In this document: positions 230 to 14,945 of the stretch, in pieces | Layout: each line of letters opens with the position of its first letter | Numbering within the stretch: position 1 is the first letter of the stretch | Source: Solirubrobacterales bacterium 70-9 | GTDB lineage: Bacteria; Actinomycetota; Thermoleophilia; Solirubrobacterales; 70-9 | NCBI GenBank assembly: GCA_001898095.1 | Contig: MKSH01000023.1 | Location: forward strand, 13,705 to 30,498 | Length of the DNA stretch: 16,794 bases | Direction of reading: 5' to 3' | Program-made: the position numbers and the translations under genes | Notes under the pieces: model-generated | Database searches by the model: none | The model's input: the letters and a program-made list of their open reading frames with translations, nothing else | What the model was told of the DNA's origin: nothing

Positions 230-233
230 ACAA
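224..233. promoter_or_regulatory. Putative GntR-family operator (copy 1)
   Basis: TTGCATACAA is a near-palindrome (reverse complement TTGTATGCAA). With the two following C's it shares the 11-mer TGCATACAACC with the site before gntR at 12292-12302. It overlaps the start codon of the HD-domain gene. The link to the GntR protein is an inference from motif recurrence and from the inverted-repeat form typical of FCD-type regulators. Confidence 0.5.
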
Positions 234-374: not shown

Positions 375-1778
375 ATGCAATTCGCCAAGGAACAGCTCTC
401 ACCGGAGATGCTGTTGCTTTCTTTCATTTATCTCGTTGGTGCGGTATCCGTAGTCCTGATCGTCCTGGCCCTGTGTTTCGTCGATTCCGGCCTGGTGCGA
501 CGCAAGAACATGCTCGACACGTGGATCGCCAAGATCCTCGCCGCGCTGATCGCCGGCGGCGGCACCATGGTCGCCGGGATCGGCATCTGGAACTGGCAGT
601 TCAACGAAGCCTTCGGGGTGCATGAACCCCTCTGGCAGGCGTTGAAGGATTGGTGGCTGGGTGGCCAGTTCCTCACCCACTATTCGGGCCAACTGGCGTT
701 CGAAAAGCTGCCCGAGGCGGACGTCCAGCAGGTCTTCGCCGCCTTCTTCATCACGTTCTCGTTGGGAACGCTGGCGCTGATCCACACCGGCGCGATGGAG
801 CGGATGCGACACAAGCCCCTATATGTGATGGCCCTGGTGATCGGCCTGGTGCTCTCGCCGCTCGTCGCCTACCTCAACTGGGGACCGGTCGGGCCGCTCT
901 CCAACCACGGCACCCATGATTTCGACGGCGTCTTCCCGCTCTACATCTTCGCCGGGACCTGGGTCGCCGTCCTCAGCTGGCGACTCGGGCCACGGCTCGG
1001 CGCCTTCAAGCCTCACCCCAGCGGCACCAAACCGGTGGGCAACAACATCGCCCTGGTCGGTGCCGGCGTGCTGCTGATCATGTTCGCCCTGCCGTTCATC
1101 GCCGTGGCCTCCACCTGGATCGCCCCGGAAGAAGGGTTCTTCGGGATCAGCTTCACCAACACCGGGATAGGGATCATCCTCGAGAACATCTTCTGCGCCT
1201 ACATCGGCGGCGCGGTGGCGGGTGGCTTCATCGCCTACCGTCGCAAGGAAGCGCAGTGGGCGCTGCTGGGACCACTGGCGGGCGCCGTCATCTGCGGCAC
1301 GATGCTCGATGTCGGCATGCCCTGGGTGGTCTTCCTGGTCTCCCTCGCGGGCCCGTTCGTCGCCCTGGGGACCGCCAACCTGACGGTGAAGCTCGGCATC
1401 GACGAGCCCAAGGTCCTGCCGCTGGCGCTCGGCCCGGGCGTCGTCGGCGCGCTGCTCTGCGGCTTCCTCTACTGGGGGACGAAGACCGGTGGCTACCCCG
1501 GACTGGAAGGCGCCTACGCCCTCCAGCACGCCGAAATCACCCCCTGGTGGCAGCTCGCCGGAATCGTCTCGACGATGCTGATCGCGGCGATCCCCTGCCT
1601 GTTGATCTGCCTCGCCTTCGAGCGGACCGGCGGGCTCCGGATCACCGAAGAGCAGGAGCTGGTCGGCCTCGACCAGACCTACTGGGGCATCGACAACTAC
1701 GGCGAGGAGCCCCCGCTCGCGATCGGCGCCCCGGCGCCGCCGATCGCTGACAGCCCTCCGCCGGTCGCGACCACCTAG
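375..1778 (+). CDS. Amt/Rh-fold membrane transporter lacking the twin pore histidines
   Basis: 467 residues; ATG at 375 follows a GAGGAG ribosome site 5 bases upstream, so the longer open frame from 294 is not used. About eleven hydrophobic segments span the protein. Family landmarks can be read by eye: DSGLVRRKN after TM1, a TGAMERMR loop (Amt: GALAERxR, near 138-145), a conserved-type W near 169, DFDG near 182-185, LGPR near 205, and the cytoplasmic tail GLRITEEQELVGLD (Amt: GLRVxxEEExxGLD). By eye alignment with E. coli AmtB, Asp160 is kept (D182) but His168 is Tyr190 and His318 is about Ala351, so classical NH4+ deprotonation and conduction are doubtful. It faces a pyridine-catabolism operon that releases ammonium, so it may carry a pyridine compound, handle ammonium by another mechanism, or act as a sensor. 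A proline-rich tail ends the protein. Confidence 0.8.
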   Translation: MQFAKEQLSPEMLLLSFIYLVGAVSVVLIVLALCFVDSGLVRRKNMLDTWIAKILAALIAGGGTMVAGIGIWNWQFNEAFGVHEPLWQALKDWWLGGQFLTHYSGQLAFEKLPEADVQQVFAAFFITFSLGTLALIHTGAMERMRHKPLYVMALVIGLVLSPLVAYLNWGPVGPLSNHGTHDFDGVFPLYIFAGTWVAVLSWRLGPRLGAFKPHPSGTKPVGNNIALVGAGVLLIMFALPFIAVASTWIAPEEGFFGISFTNTGIGIILENIFCAYIGGAVAGGFIAYRRKEAQWALLGPLAGAVICGTMLDVGMPWVVFLVSLAGPFVALGTANLTVKLGIDEPKVLPLALGPGVVGALLCGFLYWGTKTGGYPGLEGAYALQHAEITPWWQLAGIVSTMLIAAIPCLLICLAFERTGGLRITEEQELVGLDQTYWGIDNYGEEPPLAIGAPAPPIADSPPPVATT

Positions 1779-2440: not shown

Positions 2441-3187
2441 TCAGGTCGCCAGCAACGACCCCGCGCCCGGCACCGCGCGGGACGCGCCGAGGGCGTCGAG
2501 GACCTCGCCGGCGGTGGCGGTGGCGGCGGAGAGGACGGGGAGGCCGGCGTCGGCCTCGAGGCGGTCGAGGATCTCCAGCGAGGGCATCTGCACGCAGGCG
2601 GAGCCGATCAGGGCCTGGGCGCGGCTCAGGTCGAGGCCGCGGGCGTGGTCGACGAGGCCGCTCGGGTCGAGGCGGCCGACCTCGACGTTGTCGGCGACGT
2701 TGAGGCTGAGGGAGTCGACGACCTCGATCCCGTAGGCCTCGAGGTAGCCGGCGACGAGCGCCGTCAGCGGCGGCATGTACGGGGTCATGATCGCCACCCG
2801 CTCGAAGCCCTGCTGCTGGAGCGCGCGGATCAGCGCCCCGGCGCTCGAGAGCACCGGCGCCTCACCGCCGTTCTCGGCGGCGAGGGCCGAGAGGTGCTTC
2901 TCCACCTTCTCGTGGGCGCCCGCACCGCGCGCCATCAGCGCGATCAGGCAGGCGTAGGCGATCACGTCGACCCGCGCGTCGGAGAGCTCCTTCACGCAGC
3001 GGTCGGAGTCGGCGACCATGCGGTCCAGGGACTCCTCGTCGACGCTGTGGAGGACGGCGCGGCTGGAGTGGAAGGTGACCGGAAAGTCGAGCTCCGCCCG
3101 CGCCAACATGCGCGGCACCTCGGTCTCGATCGTCGTGTTGGAGCTGGGGACGATCAGCCCCACCCGCCTGGTCTCGGCGGCGTTCAC
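2441..3187 (-). CDS. nicE: Maleate cis-trans isomerase (Asp/Glu racemase superfamily)
   Basis: 248 residues from a GTG at 3187 that overlaps the preceding stop as GTGA; family members are about 250 residues. The N-terminus RRVGLIVPSSNTTIETEVP is the typical start of this maleate isomerase/arylmalonate decarboxylase group. The two active-site cysteines expected for maleate isomerase are present: C80 in VIAYACLIAL and C198 in IGSACVQMP. The two-Cys arrangement argues against a one-Cys decarboxylase. It would turn maleate, the product of maleamate hydrolysis, into fumarate for the TCA cycle. It is the last gene of the operon, and its stop is followed by hairpin e. Confidence 0.88.
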   Translation of the reverse strand: MNAAETRRVGLIVPSSNTTIETEVPRMLARAELDFPVTFHSSRAVLHSVDEESLDRMVADSDRCVKELSDARVDVIAYACLIALMARGAGAHEKVEKHLSALAAENGGEAPVLSSAGALIRALQQQGFERVAIMTPYMPPLTALVAGYLEAYGIEVVDSLSLNVADNVEVGRLDPSGLVDHARGLDLSRAQALIGSACVQMPSLEILDRLEADAGLPVLSAATATAGEVLDALGASRAVPGAGSLLAT

Positions 3188-3843
3188 CGGCGGGCCCCGA
3201 AGAGGATGAACAGCGCCGTCGCCAGCAGGGCGCCCAGCGCGGTGCCCTTCAGCAGGTCGTAGGAGATGAAGAAGCCGTCCTGGCGAGGCTCCGGGGCGAT
3301 CGTGCCGGCCGCGGAAGCAGACGCCACGGGCGCACCAGGCGCAGCGGTGGCGGCAGCCCCGTTGGCGCTCGCCGCCGGCGTCCCCACCGGTTCGCCTTTC
3401 ACCGCGCGCTCGAGCGAGGACATGAACTCGCGGGTCACGGCATCGGCCTGCTTGGCGATCACCTTCTGGCCGACCGAGCCGAGCACGCCGCCCATCGCCA
3501 GGTCGGCCTCGAGGTTCACCCGGGTCCCCTCGTCGAGCGGCTCCAGGGTGACGGTGTTGGAGCTGCGCAGGTTGCCGGCCGCCCCCTTCACCGCGCGGCC
3601 GATCGCGGTGAAGCTCATCCGCTCGTTCGGCTCCCGCTCGGTGATCCGCATCTTCAGGTCGAAGGTCGCCGTCATCGGGCCGACCGCCTGGGTGACGCGG
3701 ACTTTCGAGTTGTCGGGGTCGATCACCTCGACCGACTCGACGCCGGGCACGCACTTGGCGACCTCGTCCACCTGCTCGAAGAACTCCCAGAGCCGCTCGC
3801 GCGGCTCGGCGATCACGAAGGACTGCTCAACCTTCACTCCCAT
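3184..3843 (-). CDS. SRPBCC/CoxG-family protein with C-terminal membrane anchor
   Basis: 219 residues from the ATG at 3843; GGAGGTG directly abuts this ATG, so a GTG at 3837 is an alternative start. Residues 1 to about 145 form a SRPBCC/CoxG domain (FVIAEPRERLWEFFEQVDEV, CVPGVESVEV). An Ala/Pro/Gly-rich linker follows, then one hydrophobic segment near the C-terminus (LKGTALGALLATALFILFG) ending in Arg-Arg. It overlaps the Mo-subunit gene by 17 bases and the isomerase gene by 4. In CO dehydrogenase, CoxG anchors the enzyme to the membrane. In the 3-hydroxypyridine dehydrogenase of Ensifer adhaerens a separate SRPBCC protein is a component of the enzyme. Here it probably tethers or assembles the Mo hydroxylase at the membrane. 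Confidence 0.82.
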   Translation of the reverse strand: MGVKVEQSFVIAEPRERLWEFFEQVDEVAKCVPGVESVEVIDPDNSKVRVTQAVGPMTATFDLKMRITEREPNERMSFTAIGRAVKGAAGNLRSSNTVTLEPLDEGTRVNLEADLAMGGVLGSVGQKVIAKQADAVTREFMSSLERAVKGEPVGTPAASANGAAATAAPGAPVASASAAGTIAPEPRQDGFFISYDLLKGTALGALLATALFILFGARR

Positions 3844-6214
3844 CACCTCCGTTGGCTTCGCGTATGGCCCGCCAGACCAGCTCCGGGGTGATCGGCAGGT
3901 TCGAAATCTCGATCCCGAAATCGGCGAGCGCGTCGCAGATCGCGTTCGCGATCGACGCCCCCGGCGGGATGGTCCCGGTCTCCCCCACCCCGCGGACGCC
4001 GAACGGCGTCACCGGCGAGGGGATTTCGGTGTGCAGCAGCTCGACCGCCGGCAGGTCGCTGGCGGTGGGCACGAAGTAGTCGAGCATCGTGCCGTTCACG
4101 AGCTGGCCGGAATCGGCCTCGTAGCGCAGCTCCTCGGTCAGCGCCGCGCCGAAGCCCTGGGCGAGGGCGCCCCGGATCTGGCCCTCGACCGCCTTCGGGT
4201 TCACCACCCGGCCGCTGTCGTGGGCCATCACGAAGCGCTCGATCTCGAAGTCCCCGGTCTCGGCGTCGACGGCGACCACCGCGGCGGCGCTGCCGAAGGC
4301 GTAGGCCGCGTCGGTCGGCTCGAAGTGGGCGGTCGTCTCAAGACCGGGCTCCTCGTCGATCGGGATGCCCTGGCCGGTGATCGCGGCCTTGTGGACCTCG
4401 GCCAGGCTGACCGCCCTCCCCGGGTCCTCCTTGGACCGCACGGAGTCGCCGACGATCTCCAGCGCCGCCGGGTCCTCCCCCAGCTTGCCGCCCGCGATCC
4501 GCAGCGTCTTGTCGCGCAGCGCCGCCGCCGCGTCGCGCACCGCGCCCGCCCCGGCGATCAGCGTCCGCGAGGCGAAGGCGCCGGTGTTCAGCGGCGTCGC
4601 CCCGGTGTCGCCGGCGTGGACGCGGATCGCGCCGTAGTCGATCCCGTGGACCTCGGCGCAGATCTGGGCGAAGGCGGTCTCGTTGCTCTGGCCGAAGGTC
4701 GAGACGCCGGTGTAGAGGTCGATCCCGCCGCTGCGGTTGGCGCGCAGGGTGACGCTCTCGTGGGCGCCGAAGTGCGACCCGCGCTTGGCCAGGAAGCGGG
4801 CGCTCGCGTAGCCCGTCCGCTCGACGAAGGAGGTGAAGCCGACGCCGACGTAGCGCCCGTCGGCGCGCGGCCCGCGGCCCGCCGCGCGCAGGCCCTCGTA
4901 GTCGATCCGCTCGGCGACCATCTGCAGGCAGCGCGGATAGTCGCCGCTGTCGTAGATCGCCCCGGCGGCGTTTTCCCAGGGCAGCTCCTCCTCGACCAGC
5001 ATGTTCTGCAGCCGCAGCTCCAGCGGGTCGCGGCCGAGCTTCCGCGCCAACCGGTCGACCAGCAGCTCGCGGGCGAAGTTCACCTCCGGCTGGCCGTAAC
5101 CGCGGTAGGCGCCGATCGGCGTCTTGTTCGTCACCGCGACCCGCCGTTCCACCGCCCCGTCCTCGATCTTGTAAGGCCCGGTGAAGACGATGCTCGACAG
5201 CTGGGCCGAGCCGAACGCCGAGTTCTGGCCGCCGAGGTCGGTTACGTAGGTGTCGGTCATCGCGACGAAGCGCCCGTCGGCGTCGGCGCCGATGCGGAAG
5301 TCGTGGACCGCCTCGCGCGCCTGGGTCGAGGCGCGGAAGTGCTCGAGCCGATCCTCGGTCCACTTCACCGGCCGGCGCAGCTCGATCGAGTGCAGGCAGG
5401 CGAGCACGTCCTCGGGGTAGACGCCGAGCTTCAGCCCGAAGCCGCCGCCGACGTCGCCGGTGACGACCCGCACCTCGCTCTCCACCAGCCGCAGCGACTC
5501 GGCCAGCTGCATGCGGACCAGATGCGGGACCTGGGTGGAGACGTGGGCGGTCAGCTCGCGGGCGCCGGGGCGCCACTCGGCGACGATCGCCCGCGGCTCC
5601 ATCGGCAGCGGCGCCACCCGGTTGATCCGGAAGCGGTCGGCGACCACCACGGCGGCGGCCTCGAGCGCCTGCTCCGGCTCGCCGCGGCGCTGCGGGTTCG
5701 AGGCGAGGAGGTTGTCGTCCATCTGCTGCGGGTGGATCACCGGGGCGCCGGGCTCCAGCGCCGCGATCGTGTCGGAGACGTGGGTCAGCGGCTCGTAGTC
5801 GATCCAGATCGCTTCCACCGCGTCCTCGGCGATCCGCCGGCTCTCGGCGACGACGCTCACCACCGGCTGGCCCTCGAAGGCGCAGAACTCCGGGGTGAGC
5901 GCGTAGAACGGCAGGTTGGCGGCGCCGGGGACGGGGCGCAGGACGCTGATCGGCTCGGTCCGGGCGACCACCTCGGCGCCGGTCAGGACCTGGTGCACGC
6001 CCGGCATCGCCACCGCCTCGGCGGTCTCGATCGACTCGATCCGGGCGTGCGGGAAGGGACAGCGGCCGACCGCCATGTGGAGCGAGCGGGCGGGCTCGAC
6101 GTCGTCGGTGAAGCGGCCGTCGCCCTGGATCAGGCGGTCGTCCTCCTTGCGCGGGACCACGGTCCCGATCACCCCGGGAGCCTCGCGCGTGGTGGTGTCG
6201 GCGCCCGCGCTCAC
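3827..6214 (-). CDS. Molybdenum hydroxylase large subunit (xanthine dehydrogenase/CoxL family)
   Basis: 795 residues, the usual size. The GTG start at 6214 overlaps the small-subunit stop as GTGA; the longer open frame to 6385 only shadows that gene. Family marks: an N-terminal DDRLIQGDGRFTDD segment, the molybdopterin motif GGGFG (residues 256-260), the loop AYRGYGQPE, and the catalytic Glu in GVGETGT (E745). The AYRCSFR loop of form I CO dehydrogenase is absent, so this is not a CO dehydrogenase. It would hydroxylate an electron-poor ring carbon using water-derived oxygen. Given the downstream 2,5-dihydroxypyridine dioxygenase, I infer that it hydroxylates 3-hydroxypyridine or a close relative. 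Nearby XdhC and MocA homologues suggest a cytosine-dinucleotide form of the cofactor. Confidence 0.9.
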   Translation of the reverse strand: MSAGADTTTREAPGVIGTVVPRKEDDRLIQGDGRFTDDVEPARSLHMAVGRCPFPHARIESIETAEAVAMPGVHQVLTGAEVVARTEPISVLRPVPGAANLPFYALTPEFCAFEGQPVVSVVAESRRIAEDAVEAIWIDYEPLTHVSDTIAALEPGAPVIHPQQMDDNLLASNPQRRGEPEQALEAAAVVVADRFRINRVAPLPMEPRAIVAEWRPGARELTAHVSTQVPHLVRMQLAESLRLVESEVRVVTGDVGGGFGLKLGVYPEDVLACLHSIELRRPVKWTEDRLEHFRASTQAREAVHDFRIGADADGRFVAMTDTYVTDLGGQNSAFGSAQLSSIVFTGPYKIEDGAVERRVAVTNKTPIGAYRGYGQPEVNFARELLVDRLARKLGRDPLELRLQNMLVEEELPWENAAGAIYDSGDYPRCLQMVAERIDYEGLRAAGRGPRADGRYVGVGFTSFVERTGYASARFLAKRGSHFGAHESVTLRANRSGGIDLYTGVSTFGQSNETAFAQICAEVHGIDYGAIRVHAGDTGATPLNTGAFASRTLIAGAGAVRDAAAALRDKTLRIAGGKLGEDPAALEIVGDSVRSKEDPGRAVSLAEVHKAAITGQGIPIDEEPGLETTAHFEPTDAAYAFGSAAAVVAVDAETGDFEIERFVMAHDSGRVVNPKAVEGQIRGALAQGFGAALTEELRYEADSGQLVNGTMLDYFVPTASDLPAVELLHTEIPSPVTPFGVRGVGETGTIPPGASIANAICDALADFGIEISNLPITPELVWRAIREANGGDGSEG

Positions 6215-6687
6215 GACTCCTCCCCGTTCAGCACCCGGTCGACCGCGGTGACGATCCCCTCGTAGCCGGTGCAGCGGCAGATCACGCCGCTGATCTCGTC
6301 GCGGATCTGCGCCCGGTCGAGCGTCCGCCCCGACTCGCCGAGCGCCGTCGCGGTCATCAGGAAGCCGGGCGTGCAGAAGCCGCACTGGAGGCCGCCGGCG
6401 TCCTTGAAGGCCTGCTGGAGCGGCGCCAGCTCACCGTCCACCGCAAGCGACTCGACCGTCCGCACCTCGTGGCCGTCGAGCTGCGGGGCGAGCATCAGGC
6501 AGCTCTTCACCGCCTCGCCGTCGAGCAGCACCGTGCACATCCCGCAGACTCCCTGCTCGCAGCCGACGTGGGTGCCGGTCATCCCCAGGTGCTGGCGGAG
6601 GAAGTCGGCGACGTGCATCCGCGGCGCGACCTGCTCGCGGTGGACGGTGCCGTTCACGGTGACCGTGATCTCGATCGCTTCATCCAT
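6211..6687 (-). CDS. Molybdenum hydroxylase [2Fe-2S] small subunit (CoxS family)
   Basis: 158 residues, typical length. The plant-ferredoxin-type cluster is bound by C43, C48, C51 and C63 (GCEQGVCGMC...C). The second cluster, in the C-terminal helical domain, is bound by C102, C105, C137 and C139 (QCGFCTPG, ICRCTGY). It passes electrons from the Mo site to FAD. ATG at 6687 overlaps the upstream FAD-subunit stop by 8 bases, and its own stop overlaps the large-subunit start, so translation of the three subunits is likely coupled. Confidence 0.93.
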   Translation of the reverse strand: MDEAIEITVTVNGTVHREQVAPRMHVADFLRQHLGMTGTHVGCEQGVCGMCTVLLDGEAVKSCLMLAPQLDGHEVRTVESLAVDGELAPLQQAFKDAGGLQCGFCTPGFLMTATALGESGRTLDRAQIRDEISGVICRCTGYEGIVTAVDRVLNGEES

Positions 6688-7549
6688 CGTACGAGTCCTC
6701 CCCCATCCCGCGCAGCAGGCGCCGCAGGTGGATCGGCAGGAGGTGGGTGCGGTACTCGGCGCTGGCGCGGACGTCCGCCGGCGGATCGATGCCCTCCAGC
6801 GCCAGCTCGGCCGCCTCGGCGAGCGTCGCGTCGTCCCAGGCCTGCCCCTCCAGCCGCGCGGCGGCGGCCCGCGCCAGGATCGGCGTCTGGTTCATCCCGC
6901 CGATGCCGATGCGGACGTCGTGCCAGGTGCCGTCCGGCTCCGGGGTCGCGGCGACGGCGAGGCTGAGCAGGGCGAAGTCGTTGTGCTTGCGGCCGCGCTC
7001 GAAGAAGCCGCAGCGGGCCGGGACGACGCCGAAGCGGAGCGCCGTGATCATCTCCTGCGGGTCCAGGGCGTTCGCGTAGGACCCGACGAAGAACTCCGCC
7101 GCGGGCAGCTCGCGCATCCCGGCGGGCCCGCGGGCGACGATCGTGGCGCCGAGCGTCAGCGCGACCAGCGCCACCTCGCCGGTCGGGTCGGCCTGGGCGA
7201 CGGCGCCGCCGAGCGTCCCGCGGTTGCGCACCTGGCGGTCGCCGATATGGCGGATCGCGGTCCGCAGCAGAGGCAGCCGCTCGGCGATCACCGGCGAGCC
7301 TTCCGCCTCGGTGTAGCGGACCAGTGCGCCGATCGTCGTCTCCGACCCGCGCGCCTCGATCTGCCCGAGCTCCTCGGTCAGGCGGTTGATGTCGATGACG
7401 GCGGCCGGCCGCATGAGGCGCATGCCGAGCATCGGCACCAGGCTCTGTCCGCCGGCCAGGACCCGCGCCTCACCGGCGTAGGTCTCGAGGAAGTCGATCG
7501 CCTCGTCGACCGTGTCGGGGCGTACGTATTCGAATGCCGACGGCTTCAC
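6680..7549 (-). CDS. Molybdenum hydroxylase FAD-binding subunit (CoxM family)
   Basis: 289 residues from a GTG at 7549 that overlaps the PPDK-like stop as GTGA; the longer frame to 7708 is only a shadow. The start reads VKPSAFEYVRPDTVDEA, typical of CoxM-type subunits. FAD motifs are visible: AGGQS (32-36), TIGAL (72-76) and RNRGTLGG (108-115), the last followed by a DPTGE segment. It takes electrons from the 2Fe-2S subunit and hands them to an acceptor that is not identifiable here. The gene order FAD, 2Fe-2S, Mo is the usual CoxMSL order. Confidence 0.9.
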   Translation of the reverse strand: MKPSAFEYVRPDTVDEAIDFLETYAGEARVLAGGQSLVPMLGMRLMRPAAVIDINRLTEELGQIEARGSETTIGALVRYTEAEGSPVIAERLPLLRTAIRHIGDRQVRNRGTLGGAVAQADPTGEVALVALTLGATIVARGPAGMRELPAAEFFVGSYANALDPQEMITALRFGVVPARCGFFERGRKHNDFALLSLAVAATPEPDGTWHDVRIGIGGMNQTPILARAAAARLEGQAWDDATLAEAAELALEGIDPPADVRASAEYRTHLLPIHLRRLLRGMGEDSYDG

Positions 7550-8628
7550 CGCGCTCCGCGGCCGGCACCGAGAAAGGTCGCCATCACCCGGCCGACCGCA
7601 TCGCCGGCGTCCGCGGAATCCGCCGAGCCCTCCGCCTGGCGCGAGGACCAGACGGTCTCCGGCCGCGCCTGCAGCAGGTGGAGCGCGCCGCTCGCGTCGA
7701 GCGCCCACTCGAGGTCCTGGGGAGCACCGCGATGGCGCTCGACCCGCTTGCCGAGGGCGGCGATCGCGAGCGCCTCCTCCTCGCTGATCGAGATCTCGCC
7801 CTGGCGCTCGGCCGGGAGCTTCCCCAGCTGGACCTCGCCCGCGCCGGACTCGAAGCGGTATTCCTCCTCCTGGGCGCCGGCTTCGCGCTCGAGGACTTCC
7901 ATCGTCACCTTGTCGACCTTGTGGCGGTCGGGGCTGATGTCGCCTTTGACGACGCCCTCGCCGAGGCCCCAGCAGCTCTCGATCAGGATCCTCGAGCGAT
8001 CGCCGTTGAGCGGGTCGAGGGTGAACATCACCCCGGCGCTGCGGGCCGCCACCATCTGCTGCACGCCGACCGCCATGCCCGGCAGGTTGTCGGGCGACGC
8101 CAGATCGACGCCGTCGGGACGGTAGGTGAGGACGGCCGGGTTGAAGAGGCCCGACCAGCAGCGGCGGATGTGGTCGATGACGCTGCCGGCGCCCTCGATC
8201 CAGAGATAGGTGTCGTACTGACCCGCGAAGCTCGCCCCCTCGAGGTCCTCGTTCACGCCGCTGGAGCGGACGGCGACCGCGACGCTCGCGCCGAGCCGCG
8301 ACTCCAGCTCGGCGTAGGCGGCGCGGATCTCCGCCTCGAGCGCCTCGGGCAGCGGCGCCGACTCGATCAGCGCGGCGATCTCGGCGGCGGCCCGATCGAC
8401 CGCGGCGACGTCGCCCGGGTCGAGCGCGGCGCGGATCGCGGCGATCTTCGGCGCCAGCCCGGCGGCGGCGACGAATTCCTCGAAGGCGGCGGTGGTGACG
8501 CCGAAGGCGAGCGGCACGTCGAAGCCGGCGCCGGTCATCTCGGCAAGGCCCTTCACCTTGCCGCCGACCGCGGCCGAGTCGATCCCCGGCTGGTCGATCC
8601 AGAGGATCCGGGCGCCGTCGCTAGCCAT
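7546..8628 (-). CDS. Stand-alone PEP synthase/PPDK N-terminal ATP-grasp domain protein
   Basis: 360 residues; ATG at 8628 overlaps the nicX stop by 8 bases. The sequence covers only the nucleotide-binding part of PEP synthase/pyruvate phosphate dikinase: VGGKVKGLAEM (21-31), AVRSSGVNED (119-128), FAGQYDTYL (134-142) and the C-terminal QDLEWAL...LLQARPET (304-325). The swivelling phosphohistidine domain and the PEP-binding barrel are missing. Its size and content resemble the small ATP-binding subunit of phenylphosphate synthase (PpsB) of Thauera, which works with a separate histidine subunit. A PPDK-like and a PEP-utilizing protein were both reported to be needed for 3-hydroxypyridine dehydrogenase activity in Ensifer. 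I infer ATP-dependent activation, perhaps phosphorylation, of the hydroxypyridine; the partner is not visible here. Confidence 0.82.
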   Translation of the reverse strand: MASDGARILWIDQPGIDSAAVGGKVKGLAEMTGAGFDVPLAFGVTTAAFEEFVAAAGLAPKIAAIRAALDPGDVAAVDRAAAEIAALIESAPLPEALEAEIRAAYAELESRLGASVAVAVRSSGVNEDLEGASFAGQYDTYLWIEGAGSVIDHIRRCWSGLFNPAVLTYRPDGVDLASPDNLPGMAVGVQQMVAARSAGVMFTLDPLNGDRSRILIESCWGLGEGVVKGDISPDRHKVDKVTMEVLEREAGAQEEEYRFESGAGEVQLGKLPAERQGEISISEEEALAIAALGKRVERHRGAPQDLEWALDASGALHLLQARPETVWSSRQAEGSADSADAGDAVGRVMATFLGAGRGAR

Positions 8629-9679
8629 TGGTCGCCCCGACCGCCTCGTCGGCCTTCAGCACGTCGACGACAATGTCGCCGTCGATCACGATCGGCTCGC
8701 CGTCGAGGTAGAGCGAGCAGTTCCGCATCGGCACGTCGACGTGGCAGAGGGTCTGGTTCGGCCCGCCGAGCTCGCCGTTGGGGCCGGTCGAGAACAGCAC
8801 GTTGCCGTAGAAGGAGCGGCCGTGCATGCCCATCCCGCGGCGGTCGTGGGCGAGGATCGACCACTTCGCCGTCTCCAGCATCCCCCAGCCGATGTGGCTG
8901 ATGCCGTAGGCGTCGGGGTCGTCGAAGGACTCCATGTACTCGCTCAGCAGATCGGCGTCGAGGCCGCCGGCGATGTCGACGATCTTGCCCTTCTCGATCG
9001 TCAGTTCGATCGGCGTCTGCACGTAGGACTTGAACGGGAAGATGATGTCGCCCGCGGCGATCACGACCTTGCCGTCGACGCCGTCGTCGGCACCGCCGGT
9101 GAAGAGGAAGCCGGAGGGCCAGTGATCCCAGCGGCCGGGGGTGTCGGTGTAGCCGTACTGGGTCATCACCGGGTAGGCGCCGAGCTTGTAGGTGACGTCG
9201 CTGCCCGCCTCGTTGGTGAACCGCAGCTCCTTCGCCCCGGCGAGGATCTCGGCCCCCGCCTCGACCCGCTCGCGCAGGCGCGGGCTCGGCTGCATCGCTT
9301 CGATGTGCTCGACCGGCTCGATGCAGAGCAGCACGCGGGTGCCGGACTCCTGGATCTCCATCTGCTCGGGCGAGAAGAGGAGGAAGACGGTGTCGACGAC
9401 CAGGTCGACGCCCTTCAGCGCCTCGATCGCGGGACGGTTGCCGGCCAGCGGCGTCTCGCCGACCTCCCAGACCCCGTCTTCACCGTCGAGCGAGGAGTCG
9501 ACGGCGGGCAGGCGCACGTTGAAGGCGGTGGCGCCGAGCCCTTCGGCCGCATCGAGGAAGGCGTCGACGTAGTCGACTTTCTGGTTCCCCTGGGAGAGGA
9601 CGGCGACCGTCGATCCCTCCTTGATGCCGCAGAGCTCGAGCTCGTCCCGGCACAGTTCGGTGAAGGAGTTTTTCGGCAT
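8621..9679 (-). CDS. nicX: 2,5-dihydroxypyridine 5,6-dioxygenase (M29-peptidase-like fold)
   Basis: 352 residues, against about 350 for Pseudomonas putida NicX. ATG at 9679 follows a strong GGAGG ribosome site about 7 bases upstream, the clearest in the operon. It is also the only junction in the operon with a gap (14 bases) rather than an overlap. The protein looks like an M29/aminopeptidase T relative, but in this pathway such proteins are Fe(II) ring-cleaving dioxygenases. H262 (GISHIGWGM), H313 and D315 (LCHVDVP) reproduce the His...His-x-Asp spacing I recall for NicX iron ligands. It converts 2,5-dihydroxypyridine and O2 to N-formylmaleamate. A simple peptidase reading is unlikely given the next three pathway enzymes alongside. 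Confidence 0.87.
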   Translation of the reverse strand: MPKNSFTELCRDELELCGIKEGSTVAVLSQGNQKVDYVDAFLDAAEGLGATAFNVRLPAVDSSLDGEDGVWEVGETPLAGNRPAIEALKGVDLVVDTVFLLFSPEQMEIQESGTRVLLCIEPVEHIEAMQPSPRLRERVEAGAEILAGAKELRFTNEAGSDVTYKLGAYPVMTQYGYTDTPGRWDHWPSGFLFTGGADDGVDGKVVIAAGDIIFPFKSYVQTPIELTIEKGKIVDIAGGLDADLLSEYMESFDDPDAYGISHIGWGMLETAKWSILAHDRRGMGMHGRSFYGNVLFSTGPNGELGGPNQTLCHVDVPMRNCSLYLDGEPIVIDGDIVVDVLKADEAVGATNG

Positions 9680-9693
9680 CGGAGACCTCCGTT

Positions 9694-10554
9694 CTAAGAA
9701 GCCGCGCCGTCGATGGCGAGCTCGGTTTTCAGTGCTTGGTCGACCTCCGACATGAAGCCTGGCAGGTTGTCCCAGGGGACCATGTGGCCCGCCGCGGGAA
9801 CCACCGCGTAGGCGGCGTCGGGGTTGGCGGCGCGTGCCTCGGCGGCTCCGGCCTCGGTGACGACGGGGCTGTCCCCGCCGCTGATGAAGGTGGCGCGGCC
9901 CTCGACCGCGGCCCACCAGTCGAAGAAGCCTTCCTCGCTGAAGCGGTCGTAGGTGTCGAGCACCGCGTCGCGGTCGCAGGTGCCGACCCAGCGCGCCCGC
10001 AGCAGCAGCTCGGGGCGCGGCCAGTGCGGGTAGGCGGCGGCGACCTCGTCGCCGGTGGTGCCGGCGTAGCCCGCGTCGAGCTGCGCTTCGAAGGAGGTGC
10101 GCGGGGTCGGGTAGCCGCCCCGGCCCGGGCCGCAGAGCGGCGGGTCGACGACGATCGTGTGGCGGGGTCGGGCGCCGCCGGCGACCAGCGCGGCGGCGAT
10201 CCGGGCGCCGAGCGAGTGTCCGAGGACGAGCGGGTCGGCCAGCTCCAGCTGGTCGATCGCGGCGGCCGCGTCGGCGGCGAAGTCGGGGGCCCCGTAGGCG
10301 CCGCCGGCCTCGCTCAGGCCGCGGCCACGGAGGTCCATCACCAGTGGCCGCACCCGGTCGCGGAGCGGCGCGACGATGAAGTCCCAGGTGATCGCCGGGC
10401 TGGTGATCCCGGGGAGCACGAGGAGCGGCGGCTTCTCCCCGCCGTAGTCGAGGACGTGCAGGCGACAACCGTTGCTCTCGACCCAGCGGCTCTCGGCGCC
10501 GAGCGTGCGCAGCTCGTCGCGGAGGCCGTCGGTGACCGGGTTGCGCTCAGACAT
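9694..10554 (-). CDS. nicD: N-formylmaleamate deformylase (alpha/beta hydrolase)
   Basis: 286 residues; ATG at 10554 overlaps the preceding stop by 8 bases, and the longer frame to 10650 lies inside that gene. An alpha/beta hydrolase is plain: the LVLPGITSPAITW oxyanion region (45-57), the nucleophile elbow GHSLGA with S114, D138 in VVDPP and H257 in AAGHMVPWDN. The Ser-Asp-His spacing (24, then 119) closely follows what I recall for NicD. It removes formate from N-formylmaleamate to give maleamate. Alpha/beta hydrolases are functionally broad, so the specific call rests on its place between nicX- and nicF-like genes. Confidence 0.82.
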   Translation of the reverse strand: MSERNPVTDGLRDELRTLGAESRWVESNGCRLHVLDYGGEKPPLLVLPGITSPAITWDFIVAPLRDRVRPLVMDLRGRGLSEAGGAYGAPDFAADAAAAIDQLELADPLVLGHSLGARIAAALVAGGARPRHTIVVDPPLCGPGRGGYPTPRTSFEAQLDAGYAGTTGDEVAAAYPHWPRPELLLRARWVGTCDRDAVLDTYDRFSEEGFFDWWAAVEGRATFISGGDSPVVTEAGAAEARAANPDAAYAVVPAAGHMVPWDNLPGFMSEVDQALKTELAIDGAAS

Positions 10555-11554
10555 CGGCGACCTCGGCGACGCCCCCGCCGAGCGCGGCGACGACCGCGTC
10601 GCCGAACTCCGAGGTGCTGGCCGAACCGCCGCGGTCGGGGGTGCGGACATCGGCGGCCACCTGGTCGATCACGGCTTCGAGGCGCACGCCCTCGTCCTCG
10701 CGCTCGAGCCCGAACCGCAGCAGCAGAGCCAGGGAGCGCAGCGCCGCGGTCGGGTTGGCGACCCCCTCCCCGGCGATGTCCGGGGCGGTGCCGTGGACCG
10801 GCTCGAAGAGCCCCGGGCCGGAATCGCCGAGGCTGGCGCTGGCGGCGACCCCGAGCCCCCCGGCGAGCGCCGCGGCGATGTCGGAGAGGATGTCGCCGAA
10901 GGTGTTCTCGGTGACGATCACGTCGAAGCGGGCCGGGTCTTCGACCAGGCGCATGGCGGCGGTGTCGACCAGCAGGTGGTCGAGCTCGACGTCGGGGTAC
11001 TCGGCGGCCAGCTCGGTCGCCCTGTCGCGCCACATGCGCGAGGTCGCCAGCACGTTCGCCTTGTCGACCGAGGTAAGCCGGCCGCGGCGGGTACGGGCCA
11101 GCTCGAAGGCGCGGCGCAGCACCCGGTCGACCTGGTCGGGCCGGTATTCGAGGACGTCGAAGACGGTGCCGTCGGCGCGGGTCCCGCGCTCGCCGTAGTA
11201 GAGGCCGCCGACCAGCTCGCGCACGATCAGCAGGTCGATCTGCCCGTCGCGGAAGGGGCGCAGGTTGGCGTAGACGTCGAGCGTCTTGCGCAGCTTGAAC
11301 ATGCCGTCCTCGGGGTTCGAAGCGCTCCAGGCGTAGTCGGACGCGCCGACCGCCCCCAGCATCACCGCCTCGGCCTCGAGACAGGCCGCCAGCGTCGCCG
11401 CCGGCAGCGCCTCGCCGGTCGCGGCCAGCGAGTCCGAGCCGATCGGGAACTCGCCGACCTCGACCCCCGGGGCGATCGCGGCGAGGACCTTGCGGGCCTC
11501 GCCGACCACCTCGACGCCGATCCCGTCGCCGGGGAGCAGGACGACGCCGCTCAT
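10547..11554 (-). CDS. 3-isopropylmalate dehydrogenase-family NAD-dependent decarboxylating dehydrogenase
   Basis: 335 residues, close to LeuB length. ATG at 11554 overlaps the nicF stop as ATGA. It contains LLPGDGIG (6-13), KLRKTLDVYANLRP (87-100), VRELVGGLYYGE (111-122), the family signature NTFGDILSD (217-225) and the NAD loop HGTAPDIAGEG (254-264). Acidic and arginine residues for malate-type binding and metal are kept (R89, R99, D221, D225). VREL with YYGE is isopropylmalate-dehydrogenase-like rather than the RENTEG form of D-malate/tartrate enzymes. No other leucine gene is nearby, and it is embedded in the pyridine operon by overlaps on both sides. It may oxidise a C4 acid of this pathway (for example D-malate), or be a recruited leuB. 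Confidence 0.85.
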   Translation of the reverse strand: MSGVVLLPGDGIGVEVVGEARKVLAAIAPGVEVGEFPIGSDSLAATGEALPAATLAACLEAEAVMLGAVGASDYAWSASNPEDGMFKLRKTLDVYANLRPFRDGQIDLLIVRELVGGLYYGERGTRADGTVFDVLEYRPDQVDRVLRRAFELARTRRGRLTSVDKANVLATSRMWRDRATELAAEYPDVELDHLLVDTAAMRLVEDPARFDVIVTENTFGDILSDIAAALAGGLGVAASASLGDSGPGLFEPVHGTAPDIAGEGVANPTAALRSLALLLRFGLEREDEGVRLEAVIDQVAADVRTPDRGGSASTSEFGDAVVAALGGGVAEVADV

Positions 11555-12207
11555 ACGGCCGGGGCCTCGCGGGAGCAACTGGCGACGTAGCCGAGCGCGT
11601 CGTCGAGGTCGATCACGTCGCCGTACTTGGCGTCGATGTCGAAGAGGTTCGCCGCGTGCGGCTCGGGGGCGCGGTCGCCGACGCACTCGCGCGGGACGAG
11701 CACGTCGAAGCCGGACTGGACCGCGTCGACGACGCTGGCGCGGACGCAGCCGCTGGTCGTCGCGCCGCAGACCAGGAGGGTGTCGACGCGGAGCGCGGTC
11801 AGGGCGGCGGCGAGGTCGGTGCCGAAGAAGGCGGAGGCGCCCTTCTTCACGATCAGGGGGTCGGTGGGGCGGCGCGGCAGGCGCGGGTCGAGCTCGACCG
11901 GCTCACTCCCCTCGCGCAGGGTGCCCATCGTCGGGGCCTTGCGCAGCCAGGCGCAGGCGCCCCCGTCGATGTCGGCGTCGCCGTAGGCGATCGTCGTGAA
12001 GAGGACCAGGGAATTGGCTTCGTGAGCGGCATCGACGAGCCGCGAGGTGGCCGCGACGACGTCGCTGAGGTCGCTCCCGGTCGGCCACTGCGGCTCGGTG
12101 AAGCCGCGGTTGAGGTCGACGACGAGCACGCCCGGACGCTCGCCGCGGGGCACGCGCTGCCCCCAACCGGCGCGCTCGTAGATCTGGTCGGTCGACCCGT
12201 CACCCAT
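11551..12207 (-). CDS. nicF: Maleamate amidohydrolase (isochorismatase/cysteine hydrolase family)
   Basis: 218 residues from the ATG at 12207 (MGDGSTDQIYERAGWGQRVP); an ATG at 12216 in the same frame is possible. The family triad is present: D31 (VVDLNRGFT), K122 (IVKKGASAFFGT) and C154 (CGATTSGCVRA), with the usual cis-peptide GATTSG. The close relatives are maleamate amidohydrolase and N-carbamoylsarcosine amidase; the pathway context favours maleamate to maleate plus NH3. It is the first gene of the operon, so the operon is divergent from gntR. The tandem operator motif lies just upstream and overlaps any promoter for it. Confidence 0.85.
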   Translation of the reverse strand: MGDGSTDQIYERAGWGQRVPRGERPGVLVVDLNRGFTEPQWPTGSDLSDVVAATSRLVDAAHEANSLVLFTTIAYGDADIDGGACAWLRKAPTMGTLREGSEPVELDPRLPRRPTDPLIVKKGASAFFGTDLAAALTALRVDTLLVCGATTSGCVRASVVDAVQSGFDVLVPRECVGDRAPEPHAANLFDIDAKYGDVIDLDDALGYVASCSREAPAV

Positions 12208-12218
12208 GGCCGGCATGA

Positions 12219-12236
12219 TTGCATACATGCATACCG
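12219..12236. promoter_or_regulatory. Putative tandem GntR operator at the catabolic operon start (copies 3 and 4)
   Basis: TTGCATACAT and the overlapping ATGCATACC share the GCATAC core and repeat it 8 bases apart. The site lies immediately upstream of the nicF start. On the minus strand it also contains TATGCA elements that could serve as a -10 box, so binding would block the operon promoter. Confidence 0.5.
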
Positions 12237-12290
12237 AGCTCAACGTCCGTAGGTGTCATTCGGCCTCAAATGCGCTCAAAGTGACTTTCA

Positions 12291-12300
12291 GTGCATACAA
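12291..12300. promoter_or_regulatory. Putative GntR-family operator (copy 5)
   Basis: GTGCATACAA, extended by CC, repeats the TGCATACAACC 11-mer found at 225-235. It covers the expected -35 position for the gntR promoter, which would give autoregulation. Confidence 0.5.
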
Positions 12301-12323: not shown

Positions 12324-12331
12324 CATGCGAT

Positions 12332-13042
12332 ATGGCCGACCTCGCCGTTCCCAGCTCCCTGCCCCGCGGGGAGAAGACCAGCGTCTCCGCCGCCCGGGTC
12401 CTCCGCGAGGCGATCTTCTCCGGCGAGCTGCGGCCGGGCGAAACGCTCGGCGAGGCCAACCTGGCGAGCCAGCTCGGGATCAGCCGGACGCCGATCCGCG
12501 AGGCCCTGGTCCTGCTGCGCGGCGAGGGCCTGGTCGAGACGCCGCCGAACCGACCGGCCGCGGTCCGCAACTTCACCGCCGGGGACCTGCGCGAGATGCA
12601 CTCGCTGCGGGCCGTGCTCGAGGGCTACGCGGCGCGCACCGCCGCCCCTAACCTCACCGACCGCCAGATCGGCGAGCTGGAGCGGAGCGTCGACCGCTAC
12701 GCCAGCCTGATGGACAACGACGCGATGCTGGGCGAACTCGTCGGCGAGAACTTCACCTTCCACAACACGATCATCGAGGCGGCGGGGAGCGAGCGCCTCG
12801 AGCTGATGATCCGCCAGACCACGGCGATGCCGCTGATCTACCGCTCCTACATGACCTACTCGAAGGAGAACCGCGACTCGGCGCTGCAGGACCATCGCAA
12901 GATCCTGGCGGCGTTGCGCGACCGCGATCCGGAGCGGGCCGAGTCGTTGATGAAGGCGCACGTGCTGTGGGCCCGCGACGTCGCGCTCGCCCACCTGCCG
13001 CTGATCGACGACGGCCAGGCCGACGAGCCAGATCGGACTTGA
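12332..13042 (+). CDS. GntR-family (FCD subfamily) transcriptional regulator
   Basis: 236 residues from ATG 12332; the longer frame from 12206 would run through the operator region. The N-terminal winged helix is clear: VLREAIFSGELRPGETLGE and LASQLGISRTPIREAL (45-60). From about residue 85 an FCD ligand-binding domain follows, with likely metal-binding histidines in NFTFHNTIIEAAG (H144), QDHRKIL (H188) and MKAHV (H210). It is divergent from the catabolic operon and flanked by repeated TTGCATACAA-like sites, so it is probably a repressor released by a pathway acid or the pyridine substrate. Its stop overlaps the ABC ATPase start (TTGA), so these genes may be co-transcribed. Confidence 0.9.
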   Translation: MADLAVPSSLPRGEKTSVSAARVLREAIFSGELRPGETLGEANLASQLGISRTPIREALVLLRGEGLVETPPNRPAAVRNFTAGDLREMHSLRAVLEGYAARTAAPNLTDRQIGELERSVDRYASLMDNDAMLGELVGENFTFHNTIIEAAGSERLELMIRQTTAMPLIYRSYMTYSKENRDSALQDHRKILAALRDRDPERAESLMKAHVLWARDVALAHLPLIDDGQADEPDRT

Positions 13043-13839
13043 GCACCGCCGCGCTGGAGATGCACGGGGTGAGCGCGTTCGGCGACGCCGGCGAGCGCCC
13101 GATGCTGGCGGAGGTCGACTGGACGGTGCGGCGCGGTGAGCACTGGGCGCTGGTCGGGGCCAACGGCGCCGGCAAGAGCACCCTGCTGAAGATCGCGGCC
13201 GGGATGCTGGAGCCCGACGAGGGGACCGTGCGGGCGCTCGGCGAGCCCTTCGACACGCACGGCCTGGCCAACCCGAAGCTGCGGATCGGGGTGATCGAGA
13301 GCCACCCGCGGATCTACGCCGAGAACCTCACCGTGCTGGAGATCGTCTCGATGCAGCGCACCGGGCCGGCGGCGGTGATGGGGGCGCGGATCGACCCGGC
13401 CGAGCGCGAGCGTGCCGCCGCCCTGCTCGAGCGCTTCGGCTGCGGGCACCTGGCGTCGCGGCGCTACCGGGTCTGCTCCCAGGGCGAGCGCCAGCGGGTG
13501 ATGCTGGCCCGGGCGATGATGCGGGACCCCGAGCTGCTGCTGCTCGACGAGCCCAGCTCGGCGCTCGACCTGATCGCCCGCGAGGCCTTCATCGAGGCGG
13601 TCTCGGCGCTGGTCGCCGGCGCCCCGCGGATCGCCACGGTGACCGTCGCCCACCACCTCGAGGAGCTGCCCGCGGTGGTCGATCACGCCGTGCTCCTGCA
13701 CGAGGGGCGGGTGCTCGCGGCCGGCCCGGCGGCGGCGGTGCTGAACACCGAGAACCTCTCGCGGGCGTTCGCCGCCCCGGTCGAGGTGCGGCACGGAGGC
13801 GGACGGTGGCGGGCCGATCTGGCCGCCGCGCCGGGATGA
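13039..13839 (+). CDS. Stand-alone ABC transporter ATP-binding protein (ModF-like)
   Basis: 266 residues using a TTG start at 13039 that overlaps the gntR stop; this start keeps the first beta strand (TAALEMHGVSAFG), which the next ATG (13060) would cut. Walker A GANGAGKST (40-48), signature CSQGE (146-150, for LSGGE), Walker B LLLLDEP (166-172) and the H-loop histidine near 205 are present. The usual Q-loop glutamine is not obvious (IGVIESHPRIY). No permease or binding protein is adjacent. The single-domain soluble form resembles the COG1119/ModF group linked by name to molybdenum. That fits a neighbourhood of Mo-enzyme and Mo-cofactor genes but is not proof of function. Confidence 0.78.
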   Translation: MSTAALEMHGVSAFGDAGERPMLAEVDWTVRRGEHWALVGANGAGKSTLLKIAAGMLEPDEGTVRALGEPFDTHGLANPKLRIGVIESHPRIYAENLTVLEIVSMQRTGPAAVMGARIDPAERERAAALLERFGCGHLASRRYRVCSQGERQRVMLARAMMRDPELLLLDEPSSALDLIAREAFIEAVSALVAGAPRIATVTVAHHLEELPAVVDHAVLLHEGRVLAAGPAAAVLNTENLSRAFAAPVEVRHGGGRWRADLAAAPG

Positions 13840-14945
13840 GCGTCTTCCGGTCGACCCTCGAAGGGGCACTCGCCTGGCGCGAGGAAGGACGGCGGGTCGC
13901 GATCGCGACGCTGTTCGAGGCGGAGGGATCCTCGCCCTTCGAGCCCGGCGCGACGATGGCGATCGACGCCGAGGGGCGGATCGAGGGGTCGGTGACCGGC
14001 GGCTGCGTCGAGGGCGCGGTGGCGCAGGCGGCGATCGCGATGCTGGCCGGCGAGCCGCGGACCGAGAACCTCCGCTACGGGATCAGCGACGACCTGGCGG
14101 GGTCGGTCGGGTTGACCTGCGGCGGGATCGTCCACGTCGGCCTGCGGGAGCTCGACCGGAACGGCGCCGAAGTCCTCGCCGCCGTGCTCGCGGCGGAACG
14201 GGAGGGCGACGCGGTGGCGGTCGCGACCGTGCTCGACGGCCCCGGCGCGGGCGGCTCGCTGGCCGTCAGCGGGGCGGGCAGGGTCGGGCGCCTGGCGAGC
14301 GGCGGCGAGCTCGAACCCCACCTGGTCCGCGAGGTCGAGGGGATGCTGACCCAGGGCATCTCCGGGGTGCGCCGCTACGGCGCCGACGGCGTCCGCCTCG
14401 GCAACGAGGTCCGCGTCTTCATCGACAGCCACAGCCCGCCGGCGCGGATCGTGATCTTCGGCGCCGTCGACTTCGCCGCGGCCCTGGCGCCGCCGGCCGC
14501 CGCGCTCGGGTTCGCGGTGACGATCTGCGACGCGCGCGCGGCCTTCGCCGGGTCCTCGCGCTTCTCCGAGTCCGCCCGCGTGGTCGTCGGCTGGCCCGAG
14601 GACCTGCTCGCCGCGGAGGAGCTCGGCCCGCGCGACGCGATCCTCGTCTTCACCCACGACCGCAAGTTCGACGAGCCCGCCCTGCTCGGCGCCCTGCGGA
14701 CCGGGGTCGGCTACATCGGTGCCCTCGGCAGCCGGCGGACGGTCGCCGATCGCACCGAGCGGCTGCTCGGCGCCGGGGCCACCGAGGCCGAGCTGGCGCG
14801 GATCTGCTCCCCGGCCGGGCTGGACATCGGCGCCCGCGACCCGGAGGAGACGGCGCTCTCGATCCTGGCCGAGATCGTCGCCGTCCGCAACGGGCGCGGC
14901 GGCGGCCAACTGCGCCAGGCGCGCGGGCCGATCCACCCCTCCTGA
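13836..14945 (+). CDS. xdhC: XdhC/CoxI-family molybdenum cofactor maturation factor
   Basis: 369 residues; ATG 13836 overlaps the ABC stop as ATGA. The N-terminal XdhC domain shows ATLFEAEGSSPFEPGATMAI, GSVTGGCVEGAV (with C57) and GLTCGGIVHV. The C-terminal Rossmann domain begins near residue 205 (IVIFGAVDFAAAL) and contains FTHDRKFDEPALL and GYIGALGSRRT. XdhC proteins bind molybdopterin, protect or sulfurate it, and insert it into apo-hydroxylase. The only such hydroxylase in the window is the one encoded at 3827-7549. The gene ends 12 bases from the stop of the convergent mocA-like gene. Confidence 0.9.
   Translation: MSVFRSTLEGALAWREEGRRVAIATLFEAEGSSPFEPGATMAIDAEGRIEGSVTGGCVEGAVAQAAIAMLAGEPRTENLRYGISDDLAGSVGLTCGGIVHVGLRELDRNGAEVLAAVLAAEREGDAVAVATVLDGPGAGGSLAVSGAGRVGRLASGGELEPHLVREVEGMLTQGISGVRRYGADGVRLGNEVRVFIDSHSPPARIVIFGAVDFAAALAPPAAALGFAVTICDARAAFAGSSRFSESARVVVGWPEDLLAAEELGPRDAILVFTHDRKFDEPALLGALRTGVGYIGALGSRRTVADRTERLLGAGATEAELARICSPAGLDIGARDPEETALSILAEIVAVRNGRGGGQLRQARGPIHPS

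Follow-up and report, generated by a model that had tools for sequence, protein, structure and literature searches.

A candidate 3-hydroxypyridine catabolic operon pairing a two-component dikinase with a molybdenum hydroxylase in a Solirubrobacterales genome

A stretch of 16,794 nucleotides from the soil actinobacterium Solirubrobacterales bacterium 70-9 (contig C23:13705-30498 of draft genome G000; hereafter the window) carries a ten-gene operon which, together with genes lying across and beyond the left edge of the window, on balance probably encodes an inducible pathway that breaks down 3-hydroxypyridine or a closely related 3-hydroxypyridine. The substrate would be phosphorylated, hydroxylated by a molybdenum (Mo) enzyme, dephosphorylated and then cleaved at the ring. 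The lower pathway, from 2,5-dihydroxypyridine to fumarate, is near certain. Mo hydroxylases usually place a hydroxyl group adjacent to a ring nitrogen, and 3-hydroxypyridine is the likely substrate because it is the sole monohydroxypyridine that gives 2,5-dihydroxypyridine by one hydroxylation at such a position. The presumed order of phosphorylation, hydroxylation and dephosphorylation is suggested by a dikinase of a family acting on aromatic hydroxyl groups, by its location next to the Mo hydroxylase genes and by a regulator that it likely has in common with an HD-type hydrolase. New here are the identification of the dikinase, the HD gene, the clade to which the dikinase belongs, the likely regulon, the occurrence of the system in two phyla and a named host.

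The ten genes lie on the minus strand in the order NicF, isopropylmalate dehydrogenase (IPMDH)-like, NicD, NicX, PPDK_N, CoxM, CoxS, CoxL, SRPBCC and NicE, and their ends overlap or abut (Table 1). Gene families, residues, linkage, the dikinase clade and the shared operator-like sites are read directly from the DNA. An initial annotation, made from the letters of the window, had described a hydroxypyridine gene set at 2441..12207 in a distant high-GC lineage. Pfam domains and best PDB matches place every gene that it named where it had put them, in a single operon, and near relatives of the source genome (84% complete, 5.7% contaminated) are Solirubrobacterales, of the class Thermoleophilia. 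The system does not stop at position 2441, however, and continues to the left past the edge of the window.

The complete maleamate route (NicX, NicD, NicF, NicE), already proposed in that annotation, is supported by homology to solved enzymes. Comparison with these enzymes shows that the serine, cysteine and cysteine pair of NicD, NicF and NicE, which we take to be catalytic, are kept. Aligned with 7CN3, the window NicX retains His265, Ser302, His318 and Asp320 (positions 265, 318 and 320 also by script), the iron ligands described in PMC7910607. The substrate-binding His189 is kept and Glu177 is replaced by Gln; of 87 rows aligned at position 177, 72 have Glu and one a gap, and the 14 with Gln all belong to actinobacterial loci of this group. 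Phe in place of His105 was considered as an odd sign and dropped, since 85 of the 87 rows have Phe and an H105F variant is reported to retain activity (PMC7910607). A second NicX-like protein (35% identity) is encoded within the Mo-hydroxylase operon at L155:14841-15839 and L157:11635-12675; it keeps the iron ligands 265, 318 and 320 and has His at 105. The G1150/L157 contig also has a normal NicX, and Capillimicrobium parvum likewise encodes a second NicX-like protein (39%).

The gene between NicX and CoxM, called PPDK-like in the initial annotation, is present but is no stand-alone oddity: its product is the ATP-grasp half of a two-component dikinase whose partner is encoded outside 2441..12207. 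ATP-grasp is its sole Pfam domain, and its best PDB match is HpeI (9GOJ, 7.5e-63). A swivel-domain search of the genome matched at three sites; the one 2 kb to the left of the window belongs to a gene for an HpeH-like protein. This protein shares 46-47% identity with plasmid-encoded homologues from Azoarcus, Thermomicrobium and Rhodococcus, the Azoarcus homologue sitting among phenylphosphate carboxylase genes. Its SDIGGIMAH stretch, with Met two residues before the His, fits the published dikinase swivel motif T/SxxGGxxxH with Met (PMC12167813). Separate genes for the ATP-grasp and swivel/substrate proteins, the swivel motif and HpeI as best match therefore identify the pair as a two-component small-molecule dikinase like HpeHI of Rhodococcus rhodochrous GD02, CreHI of Corynebacterium glutamicum and PpsAB of Thauera aromatica, which have the same split and motif. 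According to PMC12167813 and PMC9618137, the dikinases of this type that were tested require both parts, with ATP as donor and a phenolic hydroxyl as acceptor, and family membership suggests that the pair here would phosphorylate an aromatic hydroxyl group. A gluconeogenic phosphoenolpyruvate (PEP) synthase or PPDK lying near nic genes by chance is scarcely credible. Many relatives are labelled 'pyruvate,water dikinase' by the source (best 120 of 767), but neither protein has a pyruvate domain (Pfam), the linkage is conserved across phyla, and a PPDK-type gene (L174), truncated at a contig end and encoding ATP-grasp, swivel and PEP-binding domains, lies at another place in the genome; identity as a gluconeogenic PPDK was rejected on the absent pyruvate domain and this second gene.

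Phylogeny sets these dikinases apart. Of 37 swivel proteins placed in a tree, 16 come from NicX-family loci and form one branch (100/99; 200/200 bootstraps) that includes the Hyphomicrobiales protein, and seven Cre-labelled rows form another (100/100), beside which a P450 gene is annotated (L089, L090), found by Pfam (L143, L149, L150) or seen by eye (L147, L148). A third branch of seven rows (98/94) holds the carboxylase-linked ones, with carboxylase genes nearby by annotation (L092, L168) or Pfam (L151, L156, L161), and also takes in L127 and L129, whose gene context was unseen. A previous tree of 41 rows, from which seven duplicate or near-identical ones were then removed and to which three were added, gave an agreeing picture. 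The ATP-grasp tree is weaker, grouping 9 of 11 pyridine-linked rows (98/94) and leaving the L155/L157 pair unplaced. In the swivel tree, the pyridine-linked dikinases are thus a clade of their own, apart from P450-linked and carboxylase-linked ones, and unlike HpeHI, CreHI and PpsAB they are associated with genes for Mo hydroxylation and for opening of a pyridine ring. Two swivel (H) subunits accompany a single ATP-grasp subunit in L154, L155 and L157, the L154 pair falling in two subclades. On a Thermomicrobium roseum plasmid (L168), the dikinase adjoins a biotin carboxylase gene and a CoxM, CoxS and CoxL (CoxMSL) set lies just beyond, its CoxL 37% identical to that of the window.

By description, the operon resembles the 3hpd system of Ensifer adhaerens HP1, for which Wang et al. 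reportedly described in 2020 a four-part Mo hydroxylase, HpdA, with a separate SRPBCC protein, PEP-utilising and PPDK-like proteins and 2,5-dihydroxypyridine as product. A set of CoxMSL-type, separate SRPBCC, PEP-utilising, PPDK-like and nic genes is present here and would fit that description, in which case the operon would be an actinobacterial counterpart; it differs in its actinomycetote host and in the additional IPMDH, Amt-fold and XdhC proteins. We know of no recognition of the HD gene or of the dikinase logic in the HP1 system. A search of the open-licence literature, with subscription journals outside its scope, found no dikinase or phosphorylation step in hydroxypyridine breakdown. 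The HP1 counterparts are reportedly involved in HpdA activity, with no reaction stated, and the PEP-utilising and PPDK-like proteins could accordingly be activators of the Mo hydroxylase or its cofactor, with no phosphorylated substrate. This is very unlikely, given that, in the family shared by the two proteins, the members that were tested phosphorylate small phenolic compounds and that the HD-type gene carries the same operator-like site as the operon.

As in the Pseudomonas nicotinate (nic) pathway, NicX, NicD, NicF and NicE occur together with the same reaction order. Unlike that pathway, no domain of a NicC flavoprotein monooxygenase or of NicAB was found among the 16 window proteins scanned, and a Mo hydroxylase stands where NicC would be; the initial annotation had drawn this contrast and had also recognised the SRPBCC protein as a separate gene, which PF06240 (CoxG) confirms. 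A CoxG homologue has been proposed to anchor the HP1 3-hydroxypyridine dehydrogenase to the membrane (PMC11962113). The Mo hydroxylase of the operon is only distantly similar to those of proteobacterial NicX loci, its CoxL being 29-36% identical where matched. Among PDB sequences, CoxL scores 483 bits with quinoline 2-oxidoreductase, 465 and 416 with carbon monoxide dehydrogenase (CODH) chains and 133 with a bacterial nicotinate dehydrogenase, the lead over CODH being small. It lies below the cut-off of all 13 NCBIfam models matched, CO dehydrogenase models included (552 of 950 and 478 of 991 bits). The AYRGYGQ loop, found in 12 of 12 cluster CoxL rows, is without the Cys of Cu-Mo CODH (AYRCSFR), which we take to be the active-site residue. 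On scores and loop, identity as a CO or nicotinate dehydrogenase was rejected. A placement closest to nicotinate, purine or CO dehydrogenases, which the initial annotation would have counted against a hydroxypyridine enzyme, was not seen by match scores, a tree not being used. Conserved basic residues of the cluster Mo subunit occupy 18 positions in a comparison with six outgroup rows, four rhizobial loci having no row long enough, and no phosphate pocket is claimed from them.

The HD-type gene sits across the window edge (window 229 to 1 and beyond), between the HpeH-like swivel gene and the Amt-like gene. Its 3' part is C23:13354-13617, and 87 N (C23:13618-13704) separate it from the 5' part. 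Homologues were found by tblastn and hidden Markov model (HMM) searches in L002, L003, L004, L007, L154 and L157, and a model of the L002 protein matches HD hydrolases. The H...HD...D metal motif (H53, H79, D80, D154) is invariant in 45 rows; the window's own motif residues fall within or beside the N run. None of four cluster rows reaches the curated Pfam threshold of PF01966 or PF13875, the best scoring 34.2 of 35.1 bits, and a PF13875 or PF01966 tag is carried by some relatives in the database. In metagenomes, 10 contigs are apparently common to the ATP-grasp list (36 rows) and the HD list (30 rows), a suggestive overlap matched on size alone.

Operator-like sites connect this gene to the main operon. 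In 30.5 kb of G000, TGTATGCA occurs three times, once at the HD start and twice in the gap between NicF and GntR, and it is found in the same three places and nowhere else on the stretches of G1097 (20 kb) and G1099 (33 kb). Both NicF-GntR sites are present in L152, one each in G1119 and G1108, and both in G1117 with another beyond GntR; the same motif search did not find it in more distant clusters. TTGTATGCA occurs twice in the window against 0.01 expected. From these shared sites, the operon of HD and swivel genes is most likely under the same regulator as the nic operon, and the GntR protein would control both via TGTATGCA-type sites.

In the proposed pathway, the dikinase would phosphorylate 3-hydroxypyridine. 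CoxMSL, which the CoxG-like SRPBCC protein would tether to the membrane, would then add a hydroxyl group at C6, next to the nitrogen and para to the ester, and the HD hydrolase would strip the phosphate to yield 2,5-dihydroxypyridine. NicX would open the ring to N-formylmaleamate, NicD would convert this to maleamate and formate, NicF would give maleate and ammonia, and NicE fumarate. The first step would be useful because Mo hydroxylases attack an electron-poor carbon and 3-hydroxypyridine ionises to an electron-rich oxide, whereas esterification blocks ionisation; the phosphate ester would also trap the substrate inside the cell. We tentatively propose that the true substrate of the Mo hydroxylase is an aryl phosphate, namely a 3-hydroxypyridine ester produced by a clade of dikinases dedicated to this task and released by a novel subfamily of HD phosphatases, in two phyla, with the Amt-fold protein as a possible pyridine carrier; this is quite possible, though somewhat less likely than not.

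A precedent exists for such gating by phosphate. The Hpe carboxylase accepts phosphorylated compounds only (PMC9618137). This requirement parallels the gating suggested for the Mo hydroxylase. A second precedent would be the Cre system, in which 4-cresol is presumably phosphorylated, oxidised by a P450 and dephosphorylated. As in Cre and similar Rhodococcus and Rhizobiaceae clusters, a dikinase, an oxidase and an HD-domain gene lie side by side here; unlike in Cre, a Mo hydroxylase replaces the P450 and the HD protein is of a different, DUF4202-like subfamily. It is unlikely that phosphorylation serves uptake or detoxification only, with the dikinase and HD hydrolase storing and releasing free 3-hydroxypyridine on which the Mo hydroxylase acts directly. 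The Hpe authors do offer scavenging, trapping or detoxification as purposes of phosphorylation, its reason being unclear to them (PMC12167813, PMC9618137). Against this, the ATP-grasp gene adjoins CoxM in 12 of the 13 clusters with both, that of an alphaproteobacterium included, as a salvage kinase need not; in the exception, G1150, a NicX-like gene stands between them. If the gated pathway is correct, a phosphorylate-oxidise-dephosphorylate cycle would run on molybdenum chemistry in two phyla, two-component dikinases would extend from phenols to pyridinols in conjunction with Mo hydroxylation, and a concrete, testable function would be at hand for the PEP-utilising and PPDK-like proteins reported from the HP1 system. 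It would also bear on a question that the dikinase authors leave open, why aromatic catabolism should begin by phosphorylation (PMC12167813).

Two further members are less directly placed in the pathway. The IPMDH paralogue, which the initial annotation had listed as an extra member, is present in addition to two other Iso_dh-family proteins of the genome, one of which outscores it (429 vs 335 bits) and is 49% identical. It misses the cut-off of the LeuB model TIGR00169 (340.9 of 353.2 bits), keeps the Arg, Tyr, Lys and Asp that we take to be catalytic, lacks a roughly 15-residue arm, and carries Met-Phe in the side-chain pocket where E. coli LeuB has Leu-Leu. Its probable role is to remove D-malate (or methylmalate) that arises from maleate, removal of D-malate being the simplest possibility. 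The retained catalytic residues and the Met-Phe pair, together with the activity on 3-methylmalate that we assume for IPMDH enzymes, would also fit a substituted (e.g. methyl) 3-hydroxypyridine degraded to methylmaleate, which would be hydrated and then oxidised by the paralogue. This is quite unlikely: the cluster showed no hydratase gene, and the paralogue is missing from the examined stretches of G1115, G1150, G408 and G843, where most other genes are present. The Amt-like protein does have the Amt fold that had been assigned to it. However, all 7 homologues compared have Tyr and Ala in place of the twin pore histidines, so that it is no ordinary ammonium transporter; it scores 117 of 343 bits with TIGR00836 and had no match among PDB sequences at E 0.001. 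It may carry the substrate.

NicX relatives were sought in 84,980 species genomes; at least 585 stretches encode one, and the best 80 loci were used. NicX, Mo hydroxylase and ATP-grasp subunit occur together in L002-L006, and further off on the L008 contig. At 1e-40 the ATP-grasp protein was matched in 72 of 299 genomes of the class, many matches lying in 700-1000-residue frames like PEP synthase, and six of the 299 have matches of at least 49% identity; at 1e-80, matches were found in 9 of 232 genomes of the order. CoxL matches at 1e-220 occur in 2 of 296 genomes of the phylum, that of the window included. A CoxL 63-64% identical was found in 1 of 397 Hyphomicrobiales genomes, on a contig with swivel protein, ATP-grasp, CoxM, SRPBCC, NicD, NicX, CoxS, CoxL and HD genes as one run; this contig gave no NicF match and only a short NicE match, of 23 residues. 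Counting once each the genomes met under two or three handles, the pyridine-type dikinase is present in 14 (G000, G1097, G1099, G679, G1117, G1119, G1108, G1115, G1150, G542, G408, G426, G616, G843). CoxL lies within the dikinase run in 13 of them, the fourteenth being a 3.7-kb contig, and a NicX-family gene is on the examined stretch in all 14 (in G426 a 35% paralogue alone, in G616 a fragment). Thirteen genomes, among them Capillimicrobium parvum and one of Hyphomicrobiales, thus combine dikinase, Mo hydroxylase and NicX-family gene. The swivel protein is found in 11 of the 14, the contig ending first in G679, G1117 and G1119. The HD gene is found in eight (G000, G1097, G1099, G1115, G1150, G542, G408, G843); it was not found on the 20-kb stretch of G426, and in the remaining five the contig breaks off within the cluster or shortly after it. 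Nine of the 14 have IPMDH and five the Amt-like protein.

The pathway is testable because Capillimicrobium parvum (G1115, so named by protein P0095; a contig of 5,953,270 bases), which we take to be in culture, has the whole set within 64 kb: NicX, NicF, NicD, NicE, HD, dikinase, CoxMSL, SRPBCC and Amt-like genes. A second CoxMSL set there (CoxL 36%), adjoining NicF and NicX, lies some 20 kb away from the block with the dikinase. Rhizobiaceae were rejected as a home of HP1-like clusters: a swivel match was found in 10 of 394 genomes, nine at full length, and the 20-kb stretches around these nine gave no NicX or Mo-hydroxylase match at 1e-6; the tenth is G185 (35%). In the six of the nine that were mapped, the dikinases neighbour a P450 in L143, L149 and L150 (Pfam) and L147 and L148 (by eye), and a carboxylase in L151 (Pfam).

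Table 1. Features of the window and of the adjoining swivel gene (window positions unless prefixed C23)
Feature	Position	Strand	Evidence
HD-type hydrolase gene, candidate aryl-phosphate phosphatase, 5' part	1..229	-	tblastn/HMM to homologues
Operator-like site TTGTATGCA overlapping HD start codon, HD/Amt divergent region	225..233	-	motif search; same place in G1097, G1099
Amt-fold membrane protein without twin pore histidines	375..1778	+	PF00909, 8e-28; alignment with E. coli AmtB
NicE-like maleate cis-trans isomerase	2441..3187	-	maleate isomerases 2XEC (6.2e-62), 4FQ7 (1.9e-60)
SRPBCC/CoxG-like protein; C-terminal stretch like a hydrophobic membrane-anchoring helix (by eye)	3184..3843	-	PF06240, 3e-18
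CoxL-type Mo subunit, loop AYRGYGQ, Glu in GVGETG	3827..6217	-	Pfam domain; quinoline 2-oxidoreductase 1T3Q, E 1.6e-143
CoxS-type [2Fe-2S] subunit	6211..6687	-	Pfam domain
CoxM-type FAD subunit	6680..7549	-	Pfam domain
ATP-grasp subunit of two-component dikinase (HpeI/CreI/PpsB-like)	7546..8628	-	PPDK_N alone, 3.2e-91; 9GOJ; tree
NicX-like 2,5-dihydroxypyridine 5,6-dioxygenase	8621..9679	-	best PDB match 7CN3, E 1.7e-97
NicD-like N-formylmaleamate deformylase, GHSLGA elbow	9694..10554	-	deformylase 4L0C, E 3.5e-44
IPMDH-like paralogue, probably D-malate or methylmalate dehydrogenase	10547..11554	-	best PDB match LeuB, 1.7e-84
NicF-like maleamate amidohydrolase, SGCVRA cysteine	11551..12207	-	4L07, E 2.3e-57
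Two operator-like TGTATGCA sites between NicF and GntR	12217..12300	.	motif search
GntR/FCD regulator, divergent from operon	12329..13042	+	domain scan
XdhC/CoxI-family Mo-enzyme maturation protein, accessory	13830..14945	+	domain scan; no match in L001-L010
MobA-like nucleotidyltransferase, accessory; possible Mo-cofactor cytidylation	14958..15503	-	domain scan
HpeH-like swivel protein, 608 residues	C23:11521-13347	operon's strand	ends 0.4 kb from window; Pfam: swivel domain alone

Beyond the GntR/FCD gene, an ABC ATPase gene is followed by those of the XdhC-family and MobA-like proteins. On the other side, past the swivel gene and on the same strand, malate synthase-, GlcF- and GlcD-like genes were seen by eye at C23:5315-11301. 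Elsewhere, L001 (5689-15502) has NicF, IPMDH, NicD, NicX and GntR 73-88% identical to those of the window, followed by a flavin-reductase-like gene (by eye) and a different CoxM (40%) and CoxS (56%). That stretch gave no CoxL and no dikinase match, and its upstream step seems swapped or broken. The P450 and two-component dikinase clusters of Rhizobiaceae (L143, L147-L150) also contain HD-type and aldehyde-dehydrogenase-type genes where maps were read. Finally, window 15515-16477 encodes a 320-residue protein with no Pfam match and a calcium-loop-like DVDGDGYGDLTQD stretch.

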